51,791 bases of DNA from an uncultured Clostridia bacterium (GTDB lineage Bacteria > Bacillota > Clostridia > Christensenellales > Borkfalkiaceae). Location of the stretch: assembly GCA_944354265.1 (NCBI GenBank), contig CALVPX010000008.1, positions 1 to 51,791 of the forward strand, written 5' to 3'. Positions 13,778 to 25,389 of this stretch are shown in pieces (within the stretch, counting starts at the first letter, position 1; every line of letters begins with the position of its first letter). The notes under the pieces are model-generated. The model had not been told where the DNA came from, searched no databases, and was given only the letters and a program-made list of their open reading frames with translations. The translations under genes and the position numbers were made by a program.

Positions 13778-13820
13778 CAATTGAATGGCAACGCCGCTTT
13801 TGCGGCGGCATGGTATTTTT

Positions 13821-16193
13821 ATGGCAGATATCAAGGATATCAAAAAAATTTTATCCCCCTCAAAGCAGCCCGACAAGCAGTTTTATCTCGACCTTTTGGA
13901 CGCGGATAAACAGCGGGCATATGAGGAGGAGCATTTAAAGGCGGTGCTCCTGATGCTCAAGGCAATTTACGTCAAAAAATTGCTCGACGGCATAAAGGCC
14001 TCCGCAGCCGAAAGGGACGCGCTCATGCACGGCCCCGATTACAATGCCGAAAAATACCGCCGCGTCTTGGAGCTCAACGCCAAAATTGCCGAGGATAGGC
14101 AAAAGGTCGACAGCTACAAGTGCTTTTTTGTCGAGCCGTACTTCGCCCGCATGGACTTATACGACGAAAAGGACGGCTACAACAGCTACTATATCGGCAA
14201 AAAGGGGGACTACGGGTTAGAAATTGTCGATTGGCGCGCCCCCCTCGCCCGCAAGTATTATCAGAAGAGTCAGCTCAAATTTTCAATCAACCAATTCGAC
14301 TACAAACTCATCTTGCGCCGCGCCCTCCGCGTGCACAACGGCAAACTTTTGGACTTTCAGAACGAATATCTGCGCCTCGACGACTATCTCACCAAGGAGG
14401 AGATAGGCGGCCGCGACGAATCGGTGATATTCGACCCCTTCTTAAAGGACATATTGAAGAGTCGCAAGGAGAAGCAGGAAATCTGCGACATAATAGAGAC
14501 CATTCAGGAGCAGCAGTACGACATAATAACCGCGCCCGAACGCTCGCAGTTTGTCGTTCAGGGCGTCGCAGGCTCGGGCAAGACCATGATAATGCTGCAC
14601 AGGCTGTCCTACCTCATGTACAACGACGAGAGCATAAAGCCCTCGAACGTGCTCGTCATCACCCCGTCAGACTCGTTCAACGCCTTCATAGACGAGCTTG
14701 CGCAGGTTTTAGAACTCGAAAAGGTAAAGACCTCCACTTTAGACAGCTATTTTCTTGCCCTTCTCAAAAATCAGGGCATCAATTTAGAGGGCAAGGTCAA
14801 TTACCACGCGCAGATAAACGCAGACTACCTTGAGTATGTATACTCAAGCAGGTTTTCCGACGACGTAAAAAAGAAGCTCAAAAAAATATACTCGGCCGTG
14901 CGCTCCATGCTCTCCCGCGAGATGGGCGGGGAGCTCATTGACAGCGTAATATCCTGCGCTCAATCGCAGATTGCCGAGTACGAGCGCATAAAGAACGCAT
15001 CCCTTCGCGTGCGCAGATGCGTCCTCGGCGAAATAAAGGAAAAGCCGGACGGCGGCCTGTATTACACCAAGCAGATGCGCGCCCTCTTCAACGGCCTTGC
15101 CGATGTGAAGGAGTTTTTAGAGCTCAACGACACCGACAAGCGCATGGACGACTACTTTTATTTCTACCGTCAGCTGCTCTCGTTCTACAAGTCGCTGCGC
15201 TTCATCCGCCGCTACGGCGAAAAAATCTGCCTCAACGCCATAGAAGATTTAAAGGCGCTTTCAACCACCGTCGAAAAGGAAATTTTCGACCTCAGGCGGT
15301 ATAAAATAAATATTAGCGGCACCGAGGAGTATACCTACCCCGACAGGATTGCCAAGCGCATAGAGCTTAAAAAGGAGATTGAGGCCACAATATCCCGCGT
15401 TGAAAGCATTTTGTCCGACTTTGCCGCCGTGTTTGACTTTGCCGAAGTCGCCAAGGGCGAGGGCTACCTCGTCCACATAGGCAAGTGCGAGGATATAGTC
15501 GATTTAATCCGCTTTTTCTACCGCGAAACGGTAAAGACGGTCAAGACCCGGTACGGCGTGTCAAATAAATTCATGTCGCGGGCAGACGTGTTCGCCCTGT
15601 GCTCGGTGCTCGCCGACCTCGGCTTTGACCTCACCCCCAAATACGCCTTCGTGTTTGTCGACGAAGCGCAGGACATATCCCCCGCCGAATACGCCCTGAT
15701 TAAGTACGTCAACGGTCAGGCCTGCTTCAACGTGTTCGGCGATTTAAAGCAGAACATAACTCCCTTCCGCGGCGTAAAGGATTGGTCGGAGCTCGGCTAC
15801 GAGGTCTACAACTTAAACCGCAACTACCGCAACACAAATCAGATAGTCGAGTACGTTTCGCAAAACCTCGGCATAGACATGCAGCCCATAGGTCTGCCCG
15901 GAGAGGAGGTGGAGCGCATCGCTCCCAAGAGCATAGGCAGGTACCTTTCCGATAAAAAGGGGCTGCGCGCCGTAATAACTTCTGAGGCAAACCTTGAAAA
16001 ATTTACCCGCAAGGCGTATAATGTCGTCAGGGAGAGCGGCGTCATCTCCAAATCCAAAATCAATATCATGACGGTGTACGAGAGCAAGGGGCTCGAATTC
16101 ACCGCAGTGGCGGTGGTGGACGGCGACCTGTCGCTCAACGAAAAATATATCGCCTATACAAGGGCGTTAAAGGAGCTCGCCGTCGTTCACTGA
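13821..16193 (+). CDS. helD: HelD-like UvrD/Rep superfamily 1 helicase
   Basis: About 790 aa. A long N-terminal part (including coiled-coil-rich YLDLLDADKQRAYEEEHLKA) precedes an SF1 motor: Walker A GVAGSGKT near residue 248, Walker B FVDEAQD near 610, motif IV-like LNRNYRN, motif V ESKGLEF and motif VI YIAYTRA. This arrangement, with a large insertion between the two motor halves, fits HelD, which removes stalled RNA polymerase from DNA in Bacillota; a repair helicase is the alternative. The start is uncertain: ATG 13821 follows a small GC hairpin, while ATG 13785 sits at the predicted transcript start. Neither has a Shine-Dalgarno sequence. Confidence 0.88.
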   Translation: MADIKDIKKILSPSKQPDKQFYLDLLDADKQRAYEEEHLKAVLLMLKAIYVKKLLDGIKASAAERDALMHGPDYNAEKYRRVLELNAKIAEDRQKVDSYKCFFVEPYFARMDLYDEKDGYNSYYIGKKGDYGLEIVDWRAPLARKYYQKSQLKFSINQFDYKLILRRALRVHNGKLLDFQNEYLRLDDYLTKEEIGGRDESVIFDPFLKDILKSRKEKQEICDIIETIQEQQYDIITAPERSQFVVQGVAGSGKTMIMLHRLSYLMYNDESIKPSNVLVITPSDSFNAFIDELAQVLELEKVKTSTLDSYFLALLKNQGINLEGKVNYHAQINADYLEYVYSSRFSDDVKKKLKKIYSAVRSMLSREMGGELIDSVISCAQSQIAEYERIKNASLRVRRCVLGEIKEKPDGGLYYTKQMRALFNGLADVKEFLELNDTDKRMDDYFYFYRQLLSFYKSLRFIRRYGEKICLNAIEDLKALSTTVEKEIFDLRRYKINISGTEEYTYPDRIAKRIELKKEIEATISRVESILSDFAAVFDFAEVAKGEGYLVHIGKCEDIVDLIRFFYRETVKTVKTRYGVSNKFMSRADVFALCSVLADLGFDLTPKYAFVFVDEAQDISPAEYALIKYVNGQACFNVFGDLKQNITPFRGVKDWSELGYEVYNLNRNYRNTNQIVEYVSQNLGIDMQPIGLPGEEVERIAPKSIGRYLSDKKGLRAVITSEANLEKFTRKAYNVVRESGVISKSKINIMTVYESKGLEFTAVAVVDGDLSLNEKYIAYTRALKELAVVH

Positions 16194-16305: not shown

Positions 16306-17163
16306 ATGAAAAGTCTTATGAACAAGAATTGCGAACAGCCCGTGCAAATTTGTTACTGCGGCAATAAAAAGGTTTTTCCGCAAATACTTCTCTCTGTGCT
16401 CTCCGTCGCCAAAAACACAGAGAGCGCTGTAGTAGTGCGTATTTTTACCATGGATCTGCACGAGGTCGACCCGCGCTTCGTCCCCATAACCGATGGTCAG
16501 CGCGCCATACTCGAAGAGGTGCTGCGAAGTAAAAATGAGTTGAGCCGCGTTTACCTCGTCGACGCGGGGGAGGAGTACTGCCGCAATCTTACGGGCGGCA
16601 AGAACGAAAAGGGCTTTTACACCCCGTATGCCCTTCTGCGCCTGCTGTTCGACAAGTTCGACCTCCCCGATAAGCTCATCTACCTCGATACCGACACCAT
16701 GTGCTGCGGCGACATTGCAAAGCTGTGGGCGTACGACATAGAGGGGTACGAGTTCGGCGCCGTCAAGGACTACGAGGGGTCGTTTTGGATAAACCGCCAT
16801 TATTGCAACTCGGGCGTGTTGCTCATGAACATGAAGGAGTGCCGCCGCACAGACCTCTTGGGCCGCGTCCGCAAGCGGGTGATGAACAGGCGCATGTTCA
16901 TGCCCGACCAAAGCTCACTCAATAAACTTGCAAAAAATAAGCTCTACCTTCCGCGGGCGTTCAACGAACAGCGCGGCATAAGGAAGGATACGGTGATAAA
17001 GCATTTCTGCCGCGGCATGAAGTGGTACGGCCCCTTCTTCAAGCTGTACAACTACAAGCAGACCGACAGGGATAACGTGCACGAAAAGTTACATATCTAT
17101 TGTTTCGACGACATATACGCGCAGTACGATGAGCTGCAGAAAAAATATGATTTTGAGATATAA
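16306..17163 (+). CDS. Glycosyltransferase family 8 protein
   Basis: A 285-aa protein. It has the GT8 features: an N-terminal nucleotide-binding region (VQICYCGNKKVFPQ), the DXD metal/nucleotide motif in IYLDTDTMCCGD (near residue 128), NSGVLLMNM and the late histidine motif VIKHFCRGMKWYGPF. GT8 enzymes transfer glucose or galactose from UDP-sugars with retention of configuration, often for surface polysaccharide or lipopolysaccharide-like glycans. It has no signal or membrane segment, so it is cytoplasmic. It lies 3 bp upstream of an ABC exporter, so its product might be exported or the link may be only positional. AAAGAGAAAG precedes the ATG. Confidence 0.9.
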   Translation: MKSLMNKNCEQPVQICYCGNKKVFPQILLSVLSVAKNTESAVVVRIFTMDLHEVDPRFVPITDGQRAILEEVLRSKNELSRVYLVDAGEEYCRNLTGGKNEKGFYTPYALLRLLFDKFDLPDKLIYLDTDTMCCGDIAKLWAYDIEGYEFGAVKDYEGSFWINRHYCNSGVLLMNMKECRRTDLLGRVRKRVMNRRMFMPDQSSLNKLAKNKLYLPRAFNEQRGIRKDTVIKHFCRGMKWYGPFFKLYNYKQTDRDNVHEKLHIYCFDDIYAQYDELQKKYDFEI

Positions 17164-17166
17164 GGC

Positions 17167-18123
17167 ATGATGGGAAATAATTACGCGGTGGAGATAAAAA
17201 ATCTCACCAAATCTTACGGCAAAGTCAAAGCCGTAAACGATATATCTTTTTCTGTGACGAGCGGCAGCCTGTTCGCCTTTCTCGGCGTAAACGGCGCGGG
17301 CAAGTCGACTACTATAAATATAATCTGCTCCATTCTCGACAAGGATTCGGGCAAAATTTACGTCGGCGGAATGGATTTGGACGACAACCCGCGCGAAATA
17401 AAGAAGAATATAGGCATAGTCTTTCAGACCTCGGTGTTAGACAAGGAGCTCACCGTCCTTCAGAACCTCGAAATCCGCACGGCCTTCTACGGCCTTAAAA
17501 AGGAGGAGAAGAGGGAGAACATAAAAAATATCATAGACCTTTTGGAGCTTGAACCCATCTTAAAGCGTCCCGTAAAGAACCTTTCGGGCGGGCAGATGAG
17601 GAGGGTGGATATCGCCCGCGCCATGGTGCACCGCCCCAAACTGCTCATCTTGGACGAGCCCACAACCGGCCTCGACCCTAAAAACCGCCGCATAGTGTGG
17701 TCGCTGATAGACAAAATCCGCACCGAAACGGGCATGACCGTCTTTCTGACCACCCATTATTTGGAGGAGGCGGAACTCGCCACCGACGTGGTAATCATGG
17801 ACAAGGGCAAAATAATCGCCCGCGGCACCCCCAACGAACTCAAAAATGCCTACTCGTCCGACGTGCTCGTCAGCTACATGCGCGCCGATGATAATTTTGA
17901 AAGCGCCCTTAAAGGTGACGGCTACACATTTACTTACGACGATGAAAAGGGCGCCTACCGCATAAACATTGCCGATACGGCCGCCGCCCGCAGGCTTATG
18001 GAACTCTATCCCCAATATACATCGGATATTGAAATTTTAAAGGGCAAGATGGACGACGTGTTCCTGAACGTCACGGGCAGGGACATATCCGTTACGGAGG
18101 AAGAAGATGCACACAAAAAATAA
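17167..18123 (+). CDS. ABC exporter ATP-binding protein (DrrA/ABC-2 type)
   Basis: A 318-aa ATPase with all motifs: Walker A GVNGAGKST, Q-loop VFQTSVLDKELT, signature LSGGQMRR, Walker B LLILDEPTTGLDP and H-loop TTHYLEEAE. The C-terminal 80 residues form the accessory domain typical of drug/polysaccharide ABC-2 exporters (GTPNELKNAYSSDV). It would power the permease encoded next, whose start it overlaps by 17 bases. The start could also be the ATG three bases later, which has better spacing to AAGG. The transported substrate is unknown; the preceding GT8 gene hints at a glycan or glycolipid, but this is inference. Confidence 0.93.
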   Translation: MMGNNYAVEIKNLTKSYGKVKAVNDISFSVTSGSLFAFLGVNGAGKSTTINIICSILDKDSGKIYVGGMDLDDNPREIKKNIGIVFQTSVLDKELTVLQNLEIRTAFYGLKKEEKRENIKNIIDLLELEPILKRPVKNLSGGQMRRVDIARAMVHRPKLLILDEPTTGLDPKNRRIVWSLIDKIRTETGMTVFLTTHYLEEAELATDVVIMDKGKIIARGTPNELKNAYSSDVLVSYMRADDNFESALKGDGYTFTYDDEKGAYRINIADTAAARRLMELYPQYTSDIEILKGKMDDVFLNVTGRDISVTEEEDAHKK

Positions 18124-19093
18124 AGTCAACTACCTCGAACAGCTCTTAAGCCTCACCAAGCGGCACCTGATGGTCTTTGTCAACAGCCGCATGCGCATGT
18201 TCTTCACCTTCATGGTGCCCTTCATAATCTTTGTAATCTACATCTTTTTCCTGCGCGATCTCGAGCTAATGACCATAACGCCCACCCTCGCCGATTACGG
18301 CCTCAATATGGATGGCGACCCTCAGCTTCGCAGGTATGTATACACGCTCATAGATTCGTGGATGCTCTCGGGCATAGTGGCAATGTCCACAATAACCGTG
18401 TCGCTGCAGATAAACACCATAACCGTCAGCGACAAGGAAAACGGCATCAACCGCGACTTTGCCTCCTCGCCCGTCTCCTCAAACATACTCATCTTCAGCT
18501 ATTTCTTGGCCAACTTCATAATAACTTTCGTCGTGTGCATGGTGTTCCTCGTGGCGTGCTTCATCTATCTCGCCGCCCTCGGCGAGCTCATAATGACCTT
18601 CACGTCCATAGTCACCATAATCTGCGTGCTCATCTTCGCATCAATCACGGGCGTGCTGTTCACCGTGTTCATCTGCTCGTTCATCTCGCACGACTCTACA
18701 ATGGCCTCTGTCATAACCATCTTCTCCACGGCAATCGGCTTCCTCATCGGCGCATATATGCCCCTCTTTATGATGCCCGAAGCCGTTCAGTACGTCTGCG
18801 GCTTTGTGCCAGGCACATATGCCTGCGCGCTCTTCAGGTACGCCTTCATGAGCGACGGCATAAACGCCATGTCGGCCTATGTCGGCAACGAGGCACTCAT
18901 GGAGGAGCTCACGGGCAGCTTCGGCTACAACTTAAATTTCTTCGGCTATGTCGTCACACCCGGCTATCAGGCGCTCGCGCTCGTGCTGTTCACGGTGCTG
19001 TTGCTCATCTTGAACGTTGTGTTTGCCAAAAAGCTGACGGCCGTCATGGGCGGCCTCCCCAAAAAAATCTTCGGCAAAAAGAAGAAAAACTAA
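18107..19093 (+). CDS. ABC-2 type exporter permease
   Basis: A 328-aa integral membrane protein with about six transmembrane helices. The first is near residues 25-47 (FFTFMVPFIIFVIYIFF), then a large external loop, then a cluster of helices from about 85 to 235 and a last one near 285-305 (ALVLFTVLLLILNVVF). The C-terminus is basic (KKIFGKKKKN). This is the usual ABC-2 permease plan that pairs with the ATPase just upstream; the 17-base overlap suggests coupled translation. A strong terminator follows. Confidence 0.9.
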   Translation: MHTKNKVNYLEQLLSLTKRHLMVFVNSRMRMFFTFMVPFIIFVIYIFFLRDLELMTITPTLADYGLNMDGDPQLRRYVYTLIDSWMLSGIVAMSTITVSLQINTITVSDKENGINRDFASSPVSSNILIFSYFLANFIITFVVCMVFLVACFIYLAALGELIMTFTSIVTIICVLIFASITGVLFTVFICSFISHDSTMASVITIFSTAIGFLIGAYMPLFMMPEAVQYVCGFVPGTYACALFRYAFMSDGINAMSAYVGNEALMEELTGSFGYNLNFFGYVVTPGYQALALVLFTVLLLILNVVFAKKLTAVMGGLPKKIFGKKKKN

Positions 19094-19752: not shown

Positions 19753-22700
19753 ATGCCAGCGAACACTAAAAAGAAACCCCAACAACTCGATCTCATCGAA
19801 CTCGACGGCGAACTTTTAAACTTCGTCTCGTATGCGACTTACTTTAACCGCATACCCCTTTTTACAACGCTCCGCGTGTACAATAACGGAGAGGAGAACA
19901 TAGAGAGCGTATCAATCGCCCTTTCGGACGACAACTCTCTCGTCATGCCCGCAAATATCGATTTGCCCCTGCTCCCCGCGCAGAGCAGTACGGAGGTAAA
20001 GGCTCCCGCGCTCTTAAACCCCAAATTCCTCGCCGATTTAAAGGAATTGCAGGTCTGCAAGGTGTTTGTAAAGGTCAGCTGCGGCAAAAAGGAAATATGT
20101 TCGCTCTCCGCCGACGTAACCGCCCTGCCCATGGATATGTGGAGCGGCATGTCGGGCAGCGTGGAGATGCTCTCCGCACACGTCCGCCCCAAAATTTCCG
20201 ACTGCCAAAAGGTGCTTGCTGAAGCGGGGCTTCAGCTCAAGACGTGGGGCTTTTCGCAGGAGTGGTCGGGCTACGCCGGCAACGACAAAAACGCCGTCCG
20301 CGGCGGAATAGCCTCAATCTATTCGGCCATCCGCAATTTAAACATAGAGCGGGGGGAGGATGCCGACATATCCCAACCCGTGTCAGTCGGCAACGTCTCT
20401 GACATAGTTGAAGAGCGCACCGCCACACCCATAGGCATGGCCTGCTTTGCGGCATCCTGCCTCGAGGCGGCAAAACTCAACCCCGTAATTGTCCTCGGCA
20501 AAAACAAGATTGGCGTGGGAGTATGGCTGTACGAAAGCTGTTTCACCACCACCTTGCAGGACGACATGTCGGTCATCGAGCGCTATATAGCCGACGGCGT
20601 AAACAACCTCGCCATAGTCGACGTGGACGACCTCTTCGCCCACAAAAACGCAAGCTACACCACTGCGGCCGCTCATTTCTCCTCCGCACTCGCGGCGGGC
20701 AGGTTCGAAATGTGCCTCGATATCAAGCGTTGCCGAATAGGCGGCGTATATCCCATGCCCATCAAGGTCAAGAGCGGCTCCTCCTACGAAATTTTGGAGG
20801 ACAGTCAGTTCTCCTACGACGCCCGCCCCAAGGACATAATCGACGCCGATAAGCTCAACTTGGGTCGCACCGAGTCCAAGGATAAAAATTGGCAGAGGCG
20901 CCTTCTCGACCTGTCGCTGCGCAACAACCTGCTCGCATTCAGGTTCAGGCGGGACGCAATACATCTCTTGACCTACGAAGCAGCCGCCTTCCTCGAAAAG
21001 GTGGGCGACCGCGAAAAACTGACCATACGCGGCAACGCCAACCCCATTGACGGCGCCCTGTACTTCGGCGGCGGGCAAAAGCTCAAGCCCCTCGGCGAGC
21101 TCATAGATATCGAGCTCGGTCAGGGCATAGTCCGCTCATATTCCCGCGCCGAAACGCTCAATGACAGCGCAAACACCCTCATTCGCAAGGCGCGCTCCAC
21201 GCAGGAGGAGGTGGGGGCAAACACCCTCTTTTTGGCAATAGGCTTTTTGAAGTGGAAGGCCAACGGCGACAAGGAATTCAAATACGCTCCCCTCGTGCTG
21301 CTGCCCGTCAGCTTAAAGAAGACCAAGACGCAGGGCATAGAGATGGATCTGTCGGACGAGTTTCAGGTCAACACCACCCTGTTGGAGTATTTAAAGGTGG
21401 AGTTCGGCATAGACGTGCGCGGCATAGAGGGCACAAACCTCACCCCCGTGGAGATACTCGCCGTCATCCGCTCAAAGACGGCCAACATGGCGGGTTGGCT
21501 CGTTCACGACGACATATATATCGCCCAATTTACATTCACGCGCTATGCAATGTGGGCGGACGTAAGGGCAAATATGCCCGTCTACAAGAACAACGCCCTC
21601 ATTGCAAGCCTGCTTTCAAACACCAACAAGCTTGGAGAAAATAAGCTTGAAGGCGACGACGAGGACGACAGCGACCCCGAAAGCGTGCTCACGCCCCTTT
21701 CGTGCGATTCCTCGCAGTACGCCGCCATTTCAGAGTCGGCAAAGGGCACAACCTTCGTCCTCCACGGTCCTCCCGGCACGGGCAAGAGTCAGACCATCAC
21801 AAACATAATAGCCAACGCCGTAAATTCGGGCAAGCGCGTGCTGTTCGTCGCCGAAAAGCAGGCCGCCCTTCAGGTCGTCAAAAAGAGGCTTGATGAAATT
21901 GGCATAGGCGAATTCTGCTTGGAGCTGCACTCGGGCAAGTCTGCGCAGAAGGCGGACATCGTCCGCTCGATAGAGAATACTCTGTCCTTAAAGGACGACT
22001 ACACCGAGGGCGAAAAGTTCGACGCCGACGCCCACAAGATAGTCGAGGACAGGGACAAATTAAAGGCTCCCTTGATGGCGCTGCACAAAAAGCGCCGCAT
22101 AGGCGTGTCCGTCTATGAGGGCATACTGTACTATCTTCAGAACAAAAACGCGCCCGAGCTTGTAAATATCGAGTCGACCTTCTACGACGGCCTTACCGCC
22201 AAAAAGCTCTCCGAATACGAAAACATGCTGCTCACGGCGCAGGTCGCCGCCAAGGAGTGCGGAGGCGTGTACCGCTCGCCCTTTGCAGGCGTCAATCTCG
22301 TCGAGTGCGACGAAAAAATTCAGGCCTCCGTTCTGTGCGCGGCGGAGGTGGTGCTTGCCGAGCTAAGGCACCTCAAAAACTATCTCGGGCTCTTTCTCGA
22401 CACCTTCAACCAAAAAATTTCGGCGTTCACGCCCAAAAAGCTCGAAAGCCTCATCGAAATATGCACCGTCCTCAAGGAGGACAAGCTCAAAAACTTCTTC
22501 AGCTGCGACGAGAGCGACTTCTATGTGTTCTTCAACGCCAACCTTCGCTACGACGCCGAAGTGCGCAATTGGATGACCCGCTTCAAGAGCCTGCCCGAAC
22601 TCGGCAAGCTCGCCGACGGCATAGAGAGCGAAATTGAAAATTGGGGCGAAAATTACCGCTCGTCCCGCCTTCTCATCAACGTCATCAAGCGCATAAACCG

Positions 22701-25389
22701 CTGCGCCCGCACTCCCATGAAGGAGAGCGAGGAGTTGGAGTGGATAAAGCGCGCGTACGAGATAGAACAGGCGCGTGAAAAGATTTTGGGCTTCACAAAT
22801 CTTTCCTCGGCCTTCCTCGGCCTCGGCAACACCATAAACGACAAAAAGCGCGACGAATACATGCGCCCCATATATTCCCTGCACGAAAGCTGCGCCTCGG
22901 TATTCATGGACTACAACGGCGACGCCTTCAACAGCGTGTGCGCCCGTGCGGCCGACGGCTATTTAAAGCCGCTCCTGACGGGCTTCATCACCGCCGCCGT
23001 CGCCTTCGTAAAGTCGTGCGACTACTTCAACAAGGTAATCAAGTGCGACAAAAACGTCGTCGGCGACGAGGACTTGTTCGACTACTACAACTCCAAGTGC
23101 TCTGCACTCATAGACAATATCGACATGCTCCCCGCGTGGTGCATGTACAAGGCCACGGCCAAAAAACTCAACGACAGCGGCCTCACCTTCATAACCGACG
23201 CAATGGAGTCGGGGCAGATAAGCGGCGAAAGAATTCTTTCTGCCTTCCGCAAAAACGTCTACCGCAACTTCATTCAGACCAACATACCCGCGGACGAAAA
23301 CCTTTCGTCCTTCTCGGCGGCGCTGCTCGATGAGACCGCCCGCGATTTTTCGCAGGTGCTCGACGAATTTGCCGTCCTCACCCGCAACCGCATCCGCCAC
23401 GACCTCATTTCCCGCCTGCCCTCATCGCAGACGGAGGGTCCCCTCGCCCTCGAACTCATGGCTTTCAACCGTCAGATCAAGGGCAACATGCGCGGCTTCA
23501 ACTTAAGGGATCTGTTCACCGACTTCCCCGAACTCTTAAAGGTGGTGGCGCCCTGCATGCTCATGAGCCCTTCAACCGTCTCGCAGTATCTGCCGCCCGA
23601 CCCCAACCTCTTCGATATGGTCATCTTCGACGAAGCTTCGCAGATGCCCACCTGCGAGGCTGTGCCCTCGCTCGCGCGCGCCAAGAGCGCGATAATCGTC
23701 GGCGACCCCAAGCAGATGCCGCCCACGTCCTTCTTCGTCAACATGGAGACGGACGAGGAAAATTTAGAGACGGAGGACCTCGAATCCGTCCTCGACGACT
23801 GCCTCGCCTTGGGCATACCCGAAAAGCATTTGAATTGGCACTACCGCTCCAAGCACGAAAGTCTCATTGCCTTCTCGAATATCATGTACTATTCGTCAAA
23901 GCTGTGCACTTTCCCCTCGCCGGATGCAATGGACAGCCGCGTAAAGCTGCGCTATATCCAAAACGGCGTGTACGAGCGCGGCGGCGCAAAGATAAACAAG
24001 CAGGAGGCCGACGCCCTCATCGACGAGGTGGTCGCCCGCCTGAAGGATCCCGCCCGCAACCGCTCGTCCATAGGTGTGGTCACATTCTCCACGCCACAGC
24101 AGGTGTACATCGAAAAACTGCTCTCCAAGCGCATAATCGCGCTCGGCCTCGAGGAGATCGCTTACGAGCGCGACGAACCCATCTTCGTCAAAAATCTTGA
24201 AAACGTTCAGGGCGACGAGAGGGATGTAATCCTCTTCTCGGTGTGCTACGGCCCCGATATGGCGGGCAGAATCTCCCTGAACTTCGGCCCTTTAAATCAG
24301 CTCGGCGGATGGCGCCGCCTCAACGTCGCCGTGTCGAGGGCGAGGGAGGAGATGATAATCTTCTCGTCCATGCGCTATTCCATGATAGACCTGTCGCGCA
24401 CAACCTCCCGCGGCGTTGCGGGCTTAAAGGCCTTCCTTGAATTTGCCGAAAAGGGCAGGACGACCATAGCCCAGCCCTCGGATGAGCTGATAATCAACAG
24501 GACGGGCATAGGCCGCTATGTTGCGGCGGAGCTCGCCCCCTACGGCTACGAGTGCCGCACGGACGTAGGCGTGTCCGACTTCAAGATAGACGTCGCCGTC
24601 GTCGACCCCAAGAACAAGCACAACTTCATTCTCGCCATTCTGTGCGACGGCACAACCGAATTTTCGGTAAAGGACCGCTCGGTCATGCAGGTTCAGACCT
24701 TAAAGCGCAACAATTGGAACGTCATAAGGCTGTATTCCATCAACTTCTTCAACAACCCCAAGCGCGAGATAAAGAAGATAAAGGAATACCTCGACAAGCT
24801 GACCTCAACACAGAAGGTGACGGCCAACACCTACAAAAAGAATTACCGCTTTGCAAAGGTAGAGGAGCGCTCCTTAGACGCCAACGCAATACTCAGCGGC
24901 GAAAACGACGGCGACATAATAAAGGTCATCCGCTCCGTAGTCACGGCGGAAGAGCCCATCTCCGCGCAGTTCCTCGCAAAGAGGGTGCTGTCAATTTACG
25001 GCATAACCAAGTACGGCACCAAGCTCGAAAATAAAATTGCCTCCTTAATTGCGGCATGCTCCTTCAAGAGCGTCAACGCCGCGGGCTATACCTACTATTA
25101 CAAGAGCGAAAAGGCCGTCGGCTACGACCGTTACCGCGTTGAAAACGGCACTCAGGTGCGCACGTCCGATACCGACTTCACGCCCTTCGACGTCATTTCG
25201 GTCATCAAGGCCATTCTGCTCGACAAGGTCAGCATGTACTCTGACGAGCTCTTAAACGCCGTAATAAAACAGCTCGGCATACCCCGCGCCTCAGATAAAA
25301 TGAACGCCTTCATCAACGCCTGCATAGATCAGGGCGTAAACGAGGGTCTGTTCATTCGCAGCATATCCGACAGGATATCCTTAAGCTAA
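19753..25389 (+). CDS. Giant DUF4011-type SF1 helicase with transglutaminase-like and nuclease-fold domains
   Basis: A 1878-aa protein. Apparent domains: a beta-sandwich (1-150); a transglutaminase-like fold (about 215-290); DUF4011 starting NWQRRLLDLSLRNNLL near 376; a split SF1 helicase with Walker A GPPGTGKSQT near 674, Walker B VIFDEASQMPT near 1291, WHYRSKH near 1360 and NVAVSRARE near 1530; a Vsr/DUF559-like endonuclease fold (about 1595-1690); and DUF3320-like winged helices at the end. In homologues as I know them, the second domain has Cys and His in GTCLDLA and GHAFVG; here the aligned text is ATPIGMA and NKIGVG. The nuclease core reads AILCDG where relatives have IECDG. Both sites look inactivated. 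The gene lies 5 bp before comEC. The function is unknown; relatives are suspected in defence or DNA repair. Confidence 0.9.
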   Translation: MPANTKKKPQQLDLIELDGELLNFVSYATYFNRIPLFTTLRVYNNGEENIESVSIALSDDNSLVMPANIDLPLLPAQSSTEVKAPALLNPKFLADLKELQVCKVFVKVSCGKKEICSLSADVTALPMDMWSGMSGSVEMLSAHVRPKISDCQKVLAEAGLQLKTWGFSQEWSGYAGNDKNAVRGGIASIYSAIRNLNIERGEDADISQPVSVGNVSDIVEERTATPIGMACFAASCLEAAKLNPVIVLGKNKIGVGVWLYESCFTTTLQDDMSVIERYIADGVNNLAIVDVDDLFAHKNASYTTAAAHFSSALAAGRFEMCLDIKRCRIGGVYPMPIKVKSGSSYEILEDSQFSYDARPKDIIDADKLNLGRTESKDKNWQRRLLDLSLRNNLLAFRFRRDAIHLLTYEAAAFLEKVGDREKLTIRGNANPIDGALYFGGGQKLKPLGELIDIELGQGIVRSYSRAETLNDSANTLIRKARSTQEEVGANTLFLAIGFLKWKANGDKEFKYAPLVLLPVSLKKTKTQGIEMDLSDEFQVNTTLLEYLKVEFGIDVRGIEGTNLTPVEILAVIRSKTANMAGWLVHDDIYIAQFTFTRYAMWADVRANMPVYKNNALIASLLSNTNKLGENKLEGDDEDDSDPESVLTPLSCDSSQYAAISESAKGTTFVLHGPPGTGKSQTITNIIANAVNSGKRVLFVAEKQAALQVVKKRLDEIGIGEFCLELHSGKSAQKADIVRSIENTLSLKDDYTEGEKFDADAHKIVEDRDKLKAPLMALHKKRRIGVSVYEGILYYLQNKNAPELVNIESTFYDGLTAKKLSEYENMLLTAQVAAKECGGVYRSPFAGVNLVECDEKIQASVLCAAEVVLAELRHLKNYLGLFLDTFNQKISAFTPKKLESLIEICTVLKEDKLKNFFSCDESDFYVFFNANLRYDAEVRNWMTRFKSLPELGKLADGIESEIENWGENYRSSRLLINVIKRINRCARTPMKESEELEWIKRAYEIEQAREKILGFTNLSSAFLGLGNTINDKKRDEYMRPIYSLHESCASVFMDYNGDAFNSVCARAADGYLKPLLTGFITAAVAFVKSCDYFNKVIKCDKNVVGDEDLFDYYNSKCSALIDNIDMLPAWCMYKATAKKLNDSGLTFITDAMESGQISGERILSAFRKNVYRNFIQTNIPADENLSSFSAALLDETARDFSQVLDEFAVLTRNRIRHDLISRLPSSQTEGPLALELMAFNRQIKGNMRGFNLRDLFTDFPELLKVVAPCMLMSPSTVSQYLPPDPNLFDMVIFDEASQMPTCEAVPSLARAKSAIIVGDPKQMPPTSFFVNMETDEENLETEDLESVLDDCLALGIPEKHLNWHYRSKHESLIAFSNIMYYSSKLCTFPSPDAMDSRVKLRYIQNGVYERGGAKINKQEADALIDEVVARLKDPARNRSSIGVVTFSTPQQVYIEKLLSKRIIALGLEEIAYERDEPIFVKNLENVQGDERDVILFSVCYGPDMAGRISLNFGPLNQLGGWRRLNVAVSRAREEMIIFSSMRYSMIDLSRTTSRGVAGLKAFLEFAEKGRTTIAQPSDELIINRTGIGRYVAAELAPYGYECRTDVGVSDFKIDVAVVDPKNKHNFILAILCDGTTEFSVKDRSVMQVQTLKRNNWNVIRLYSINFFNNPKREIKKIKEYLDKLTSTQKVTANTYKKNYRFAKVEERSLDANAILSGENDGDIIKVIRSVVTAEEPISAQFLAKRVLSIYGITKYGTKLENKIASLIAACSFKSVNAAGYTYYYKSEKAVGYDRYRVENGTQVRTSDTDFTPFDVISVIKAILLDKVSMYSDELLNAVIKQLGIPRASDKMNAFINACIDQGVNEGLFIRSISDRISLS

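Follow-up and report, generated by a model that had tools for sequence, protein, structure and literature searches.

Here we describe a giant helicase gene on a 51,791-nucleotide stretch of contig CALVPX010000008.1 (the window) from an uncultured Clostridia bacterium. The gene (19753..25389, + strand) starts with ATG and encodes a DUF4011/SF1 protein of 1878 aa, as read from the open reading frame (ORF) list and Pfam. On balance, it is best explained as a ProA/Hhe-type anti-invader helicase that has been stripped of catalysis and fixed as a core, motor-driven nucleic-acid-binding machine. A patchy, mobile distribution is what one expects of defence genes. This protein belongs to a defence-type family, yet its gene is in every genus genome searched and diverges together with its neighbours; both of its catalytic folds lack key residues, and among close species one of them has the lowest ratio of nonsynonymous to synonymous substitution (dN/dS) in the protein. 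Judging from the aligned sequences, the clade appears to keep the recognition and motor parts of the architecture without the residues for both cutting steps. The core status is more surprising than the residue losses and was not visible to the initial annotation of this DNA. If true, this would be a clear case of an immune effector turned core machine, one in which nature has split motor action from killing within the ProA/Hhe family, and it would caution against calling every genomic DUF4011 helicase an active defence system.

In the window's genus, the giant helicase was found in all 93 genomes. Protein search found 90 of these, and family search the remaining three (G789, G790 and G791, with frames of 1884, 1918 and 1874 aa), which are counted by family match with identity not measured; several genus copies are split by contig ends. 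A strong match is also seen in 61 of 61 genomes of genus g55, with the best piece only 37–41% identical in nine, and in 38 of 40 genomes of another genus of the family, the two misses being 74% and 77% complete. Genus g54 has the gene in 1 of 44 genomes. Its sole carrier (G730) is 70% complete in ~250 contigs, so contamination or transfer is possible. Some match is present in 183 of 251 genomes drawn from the family, and several other genera are without a strong match among those listed. The named relatives in the clade are uncultured Clostridia.

The gene is fixed and appears to be inherited mainly vertically. Its pairwise identities track those of the HelD-like protein, ComEC, HolA and AspK (Spearman 0.79–0.83). 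One copy (L140), from genome G094 of a different family in the order, branches within the genus on the tree, and its flank contains none of the 12 neighbours looked for; this suggests that the core version was transferred horizontally. Of 89 genus relatives, 15 have a second DUF4011 match, though some of these matches may be fragments of a single gene. Strong Hhe-like second copies are found in only 6 of the 93 genus genomes (L285–L290) and keep [IV]ECDG..YHS in 6/6, so the nuclease residues sit in the patchy copies and not in the universal one, which is without the Glu. Second copies of other types (G024b and G060b) are without the nuclease Glu.

The first of the two folds is transglutaminase (TGase)-like (20161..20796, +; residues ~137–348; AlphaFold2 and Foldseek) and has lost its catalytic Cys and His. 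The GTCLDLA- and HAFVG-type motifs of relatives align with ATPIGMA (from residue 224) and NKIGVG (from residue 251) of the window protein, which has Pro in the Cys column (codon 226, 20428..20430, +) and Lys in the His column (codon 252, 20506..20508, +). In the AlphaFold2 model a helix begins at P226, the expected place of the TGase Cys. Neither residue is retained in any of the 86 genus sequences that have this region, in which the Cys column holds Pro (80), Ala (3), Ser (2) or Leu (1) and the His column Lys (46), Ser (22), Arg (11), Asp (3), Gly (2), Phe (1) or Ala (1). Beyond the genus we read 20 loci from g276 and g55, leaving out G695, whose longer open frame is not the giant helicase. 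Cys, His and the nuclease Glu are all lost in 10/10 of the g276 copies read, and Cys and the nuclease Glu in 12/12 readable g55 copies (3 + 9 from two samplings); G378 from g55 has a His that different alignments place either on the His column or beside it. The TGase loss is shared by seven copies that come from other families within the order. The replacement of Cys and His proposed in the initial annotation is therefore confirmed in the 86 genus sequences and in the examined sequences of related genera and families, and the alignment with homologues it called for shows a lineage-wide loss in a domain that is under purifying selection among close species.

Residues 1–378 give no match to Transglut_core (PF01841) at E 0.1; 20 of 62 aligned sequences do match. 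The solved structure 3kd4, a weak profile match (E 0.088), likewise has Thr-Pro at the place of the Cys. Foldseek matches for the 1–378 model include erythrocyte protein 4.2, an inactive TGase and so a non-enzyme use of the fold. The TGase-like fold of the giant helicase is very probably catalytically inactive. In a 132-sequence panel, from which four of the 80 relatives' loci with frames <1000 aa were left out, 49 sequences keep both Cys and His, and these TGase-intact relatives stem from Clostridia, Bacteroidota, Proteobacteria, Actinobacteria and others. Outside the clade, Cys or both residues are lost in six panel sequences (L218, L232, L240, L255, L271 and L275). L255 branches beside the clade and the other five elsewhere, so TGase loss has occurred several times on the tree as drawn.

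The second fold is a Vsr/MTES_1575 nuclease-like domain (24517..24789, +; residues 1589–1679) that has lost its Glu and kept three acids. AILCDG (from residue 1628) stands in place of IECDG, as the initial annotation had it, with Leu in the Glu column of the window protein (codon 1630, 24640..24642, +); in the genus this column is Leu in 81 of 82 sequences and Ile in one. That the double loss is one unusual state is not borne out: of the 47 TGase-intact panel sequences whose nuclease could be read, 40 are without the Glu (replaced by Leu in 27, Met in 7, Val in 3, Asn in 2 and Ile in 1) and 7 keep it. As the Glu loss is wider than the clade, we reject a single unusual event. IECDG is found in Hhe-like relatives and in a few TGase-bearing ones. 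On the helicase tree, a single FastTree run that was midpoint rooted and whose supports were not read, the clade members placed form one branch, a large Glu-lost group takes in the TGase-lost clade, and the Glu-keeping lineages lie outside this group, with a few Glu-lost sequences interspersed among them. The nuclease Glu loss, found in so many TGase-intact sequences, is thus most likely older and appears ordinary for the family, with the TGase change younger. Fragment length decided which of the 80 loci entered alignments A2 (61) and A3 (60), and in A3 12 of 61 sequences match the Pfam RAP domain weakly. Altogether, we consider it likely that the Vsr-like nuclease activity has been lost.

Both folds remain under selection. 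We calculated dN/dS (NG86) among 11 close species; these give up to 55 pairs, which are not independent, and pairs with dS of at least 3 were dropped. The nuclease-like domain (residues 1586–1680) has the lowest value in the protein, 0.041. The TGase-like domain has 0.087, compared with 0.120 (651–770) and 0.090 (1241–1545) for the motor, 0.091 for the insert, 0.111 for the linker, 0.114 for DUF4011, 0.127 for the Ig-like region, 0.139 for residues 548–650 and 0.165 for the C-terminus. The nuclease-like domain also has the highest mean identity (0.84, with the motor at 0.80; 600 random pairs among 76 full-length genus sequences), and the motor leads in the fraction of near-invariant columns (0.46 versus 0.40). 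At a motor identity of 0.60–0.70 (clade group n = 42; G117, L205, L210, L214 and L223 left out), the identity of the nuclease-like domain is 0.57 in the clade and 0.42 in the TGase-intact Glu-lost group, compared with 0.49 in TGase-intact Glu-kept proteins (9 pairs), and the insert (771–1240) is at 0.33 in the clade versus 0.21 in the Glu-lost group. The nuclease-like fold is thus constrained about as in Glu-keeping proteins and more tightly than in Glu-lost ones, and the TGase-like fold is looser at depth.

The charge of the protein differs in the same comparison of the clade (n = 46 without L214, and a smaller number for domains that some members lack; also the group used for clade nuclease-residue counts) with the TGase-intact Glu-lost proteins. 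Mean net charge is +4.8 versus −1.7 for the nuclease-like domain, +3.4 versus −5.0 for the C-terminus, 0.0 versus −5.4 for the TGase-like domain and −7.7 versus −9.4 for the motor; the nuclease-like domain of Glu-kept proteins has −0.8. The basic charge would suit a domain that has gone from cutting nucleic acid to gripping it, although it is no proof, and the positive charge and low dN/dS are consistent with the folds serving as putative binding modules.

The motor itself is intact, and the SF1 helicase ORF of 1878 aa is as first described. Walker A (GPPGTGKSQT, 672–681; 21766..21795, +) and the DEASQ of Walker B (DEASQMPT, 1293–1300; 23629..23652, +) are invariant in the 19-sequence alignment A1, and the columns of the SF1 motif VI region (NVAVSRARE, 1524–1532; 24322..24348, +) are mostly invariant or nearly so. 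A1 combines the window protein with 18 relatives at 30–90% identity. The Pfam motor parts AAA_11/AAA_12 have their best stretches at residues 652–738 and 1352–1539. Ahead of the motor lie the TGase-like fold, an N-terminal Ig-like beta sandwich (19795..20127, +; residues ~15–125) seen as AlphaFold2 strands with a weak CARDB match (E 0.031), and the DUF4011 domain (20899..21393, +; residues 383–547), which matches PF13195 with 102.2 bits against a gathering score of 22.2 (E 3.7e-29). Behind it, the nuclease-like domain matches MTES_1575 REase (PF18741) with 61.6 bits against a gathering score of 38.2 (E 7.6e-17) and is followed by DUF3320 (residues 1715–1759; 25.3 bits, cut-off 25) and a C-terminal helical/winged region (together 24895..25386, +).

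AlphaFold2 gives a confident model for residues 1–378 (mean pLDDT 91.6), with the Ig-like sandwich followed by the TGase-like fold, and a fair one for residues 1570–1878 (86.7, pTM 0.64), with the nuclease-like fold ahead of helical domains that appear to be winged. The best Foldseek match of the first model is transglutaminase 2 (E 3.1e-4), at a TM-score of only 0.19 for a two-domain query; for such models TM-scores over the entire query are low. The top matches of the second model are cullin complexes and others, which we take to match through the winged helices, and the catalytic domain of I-Bth0305I ranks lower (E 0.04, probability 1.00, TMt 0.73). We therefore name the folds from Pfam, the TGase-intact relatives and the modest structural matches taken together.

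From this layout we infer how the protein would work. The intact SF1 motor, of the Upf1/SMUBP2-like kind, would spend ATP to travel along nucleic acid. The TGase-like fold would no longer cleave protein, and the Vsr-like fold, most likely past DNA cleavage, would form a basic nucleic-acid-gripping surface together with the C-terminal winged helices. Non-enzyme uses of both folds are known, in FASTKD4 for the Vsr-like one and in erythrocyte protein 4.2 for the TGase one. The nuclease Glu would have been lost first, in an ancestor that the clade has in common with the TGase-intact ProA-like proteins, the TGase Cys and His next, and the gene would then have been fixed, with mainly vertical inheritance.

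Several observations weigh against this reading or narrow it. The p-values of the charge comparison ignore relatedness, and the charge of the motor differs too (p 0.0085). At matched divergence, the conservation of the nuclease-like domain in the clade does not exceed that of Hhe-like Glu-keepers (0.57 versus 0.60, 9 pairs), and conservation of the TGase-like domain is lower in the clade than in the TGase-intact Glu-lost group at motor identities of 0.50–0.60 (0.28 versus 0.38) and 0.60–0.70 (0.35 versus 0.44), and equal at 0.70–0.80 (0.52 versus 0.51). The nuclease-like domain is looser in the divergent g55 copies, so its strong constraint is not clade-wide. Two genus members, the sister species G035 and G053 (L138 and L139), are without the N-terminal domain altogether, residues 1 to ~370 being absent; since the HelD-like gene ends 160–172 bp before the match, this part has been deleted and not split off. 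Two sets of conserved residues belong here as well. Cys263 (codon 263, 20539..20541, +; invariant at 86/86) and His297 (codon 297, 20641-20643; 84/86) are residues newly gained by the TGase-like domain of the genus and conserved there, and D1613, D1632 and D1641 are conserved in 82/82 sequences of the nuclease-like domain, which makes a rearranged metal site possible in the genus. As a separate observation, the seven divergent g55 copies (L307–L313) have frames of 1767–1925 aa, are 38–41% identical to the window protein and are looser in both domains; they are possibly a second, faster-evolving lineage.

Of the alternatives, the strongest, which we nevertheless regard as rather unlikely, is that the protein is still a defence protein that has become fixed and acts as a constitutive, motor-based sensor of phage, blocking or displacing invaders but not cutting them. 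Its nearest named model is antiphage_ProA (NF058533), for which it scores 1476.2 bits, below the cut-off of 1500 (best stretch residues 26–1692), and it reaches 953.9 bits for PADLOC PDC-S37. In addition, PMC10250203 reports that every P. aeruginosa isolate has a DUF4011 gene bordering core defence hotspot 1 on its right side, a precedent for core DUF4011 genes elsewhere. Against a defence role, the giant helicase is in 93/93 genomes, unlike the strong Hhe-like second copies, and the searched neighbours, which are not every gene of the window, are mostly housekeeping genes (guaA, pyrophosphatase, comEC, holA, cdaA, aspartate kinase and lepA). That the nuclease-like domain is still active, through an altered site of D1613, D1632 and D1641, seems improbable. 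The conservation of the three acids and the lowest dN/dS in the protein speak for it, as does E. coli Vsr, which is active with no Glu at the column lost here. However, the positions of Vsr His69 and Glu25, as we align them, are lost as well (Phe in 34 and Gly in 41 of 46 clade sequences, respectively). The domain is instead a basic one, and divergent g55 copies have not kept every one of the acids: Glu replaces D1613 in G766, D1632 in G741 and D1641 in G745, G719 and G770. FASTKD4 offers a precedent, as it keeps the Asp51-like residue and was still concluded to be a non-nuclease (PMC11879112). The initial annotation was thus right about the residues and the TGase, and for the nuclease its Glu loss stands, but it over-read this domain, whose inactivity is less than certain given the three acids kept in the genus.

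A new Cys-based site in the TGase-like fold, with Cys263 and His297 replacing the lost pair, is very unlikely. Asp290 is conserved alongside the two (84/86), and neither Cys263 nor His297 is seen in the TGase-intact relatives compared, eight of which have Thr, Ser or Ala at column 263, so the Cys is not ancestral. In the AlphaFold2 model, though, Cys263 lies in a loop after the former His strand and not at a helix start, His297 differs in G140, G102, G464 and the g276 copies, and Cys263 is lost in the divergent g55 copies G745, G719, G741 and G770. Least probable of all is that the two domains are decaying relics without a role. The deletion in G035 and G053 and the greater variability of both domains in the divergent g55 copies would fit decay. 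Among close species, the dN/dS values of both domains are low, and no internal stops are found in the genus copies among those listed; decay within the genus is rejected and this explanation is close to refuted there. The catalysis-stripped, core nucleic-acid-binding machine remains the reading we favour.

The surroundings of the gene suggest a possible partner. A HelD-like SF1 protein (13785..16193, +), whose nearest solved structure is PDB 6wvk (E 9.9e-24) and which scores 109.4 bits for HelD (NF041464) against a cut-off of 419, is the usual upstream neighbour in the genus. At 89 genus loci besides the window, its gene lies directly upstream in 51 and 3.2–4.4 kb upstream in 14, as it does in the window, with genes for a glycosyltransferase and an ABC transporter pair (16306-19093) separating the two. 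The HelD-like gene is found in 93/93 genomes of the genus, strongly in 59/61 of g55 and strongly in 0/44 of g54. The HelD-like and giant helicase genes thus co-occur in g1 and g55 and are both absent from g54, save for the one helicase-bearing genome. This link has its own counterweights: the HelD-like gene was not found in the fetched flank at 18 of the 89 loci (the flank was too short in 6), none is near the giant helicase in the three g55 loci examined, and three genera are few independent events. We therefore treat it as a lead, and a HelD-linked role for the giant helicase is a tentative proposal. The two proteins could act on transcribed or stalled nucleic acid, with the HelD-like one as an RNA-polymerase remodeller. 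More speculatively still, and in our view doubtful, the domesticated phage-defence helicase and the HelD-like remodeller might form a fixed two-protein housekeeping system that clears stalled transcription complexes or R-loops, with the dead nuclease fold as a clamp. Downstream of the giant helicase lie comEC, holA, cdaA-like and aspartate kinase genes. We rejected the idea that the gene generally belongs to a comEC operon: of the 89 genus loci, 31 have comEC immediately downstream and 41 do not, and in 17 the flank was too short.

Among known systems, open literature gave nothing useful for ProA, PDC-S37, the combination of transglutaminase, helicase and Vsr, or the Vsr active site, and a Mycoplasma bovis secretome listing includes a DUF4011 protein and gives no function for it. 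FASTKD4 shares the principle and not the membership: as described in PMC11879112, it has a Vsr-like fold with the Asp51-like residue kept and Asn at the position of Vsr His69, its authors conclude that it has no nuclease activity, and it is a eukaryotic mitochondrial RNA-binding protein. The giant helicase resembles Hhe (NF042953 and PADLOC Hhe) in its DUF4011, SF1 motor and MTES_1575 nuclease. It scores 673.4 bits for NF042953 against a cut-off of 2000, and in place of the Hhe-like IECDG followed by YH, which the strong Hhe-like second copies keep, it reads AILCDGTTEF. PMC3710099 describes and proposes giants that combine HEPN, TGase, SF1 helicase, Vsr and winged helix-turn-helix (wHTH) as an anti-invader machine, with wHTH for recognition, Vsr as DNase and TGase as peptidase. 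These MTES_1575-type giants share TGase, SF1, Vsr and wHTH with the window protein, the wHTH of that architecture overlapping DUF3320. The window protein differs by being without the residues for the proposed DNase and peptidase steps and by having no HEPN among the 25 Pfam families listed for it at E 1. The closest likeness is to ProA, with which it shares the full domain order of Ig/TGase-like, DUF4011, SF1, MTES_1575 and DUF3320, and most TGase-intact relatives are also without the nuclease Glu. Two shorter proteins, L203 (G394, 882 aa) and L204 (G497, 909 aa), match the N-terminal (TGase) and extreme C-terminal parts of the ProA model and not its helicase part, from which we judge that ProA end modules may occur without the motor. 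The TGase Cys and His are present in the 8 aligned over-cut-off sequences with an N-terminus, although they are no stated rule of the ProA model, and the window protein has Pro and Lys in their place. It differs from ProA in this loss and in being universal in its genus, whereas the ProA cut-off is passed by 10 of 391 genomes drawn from the class.

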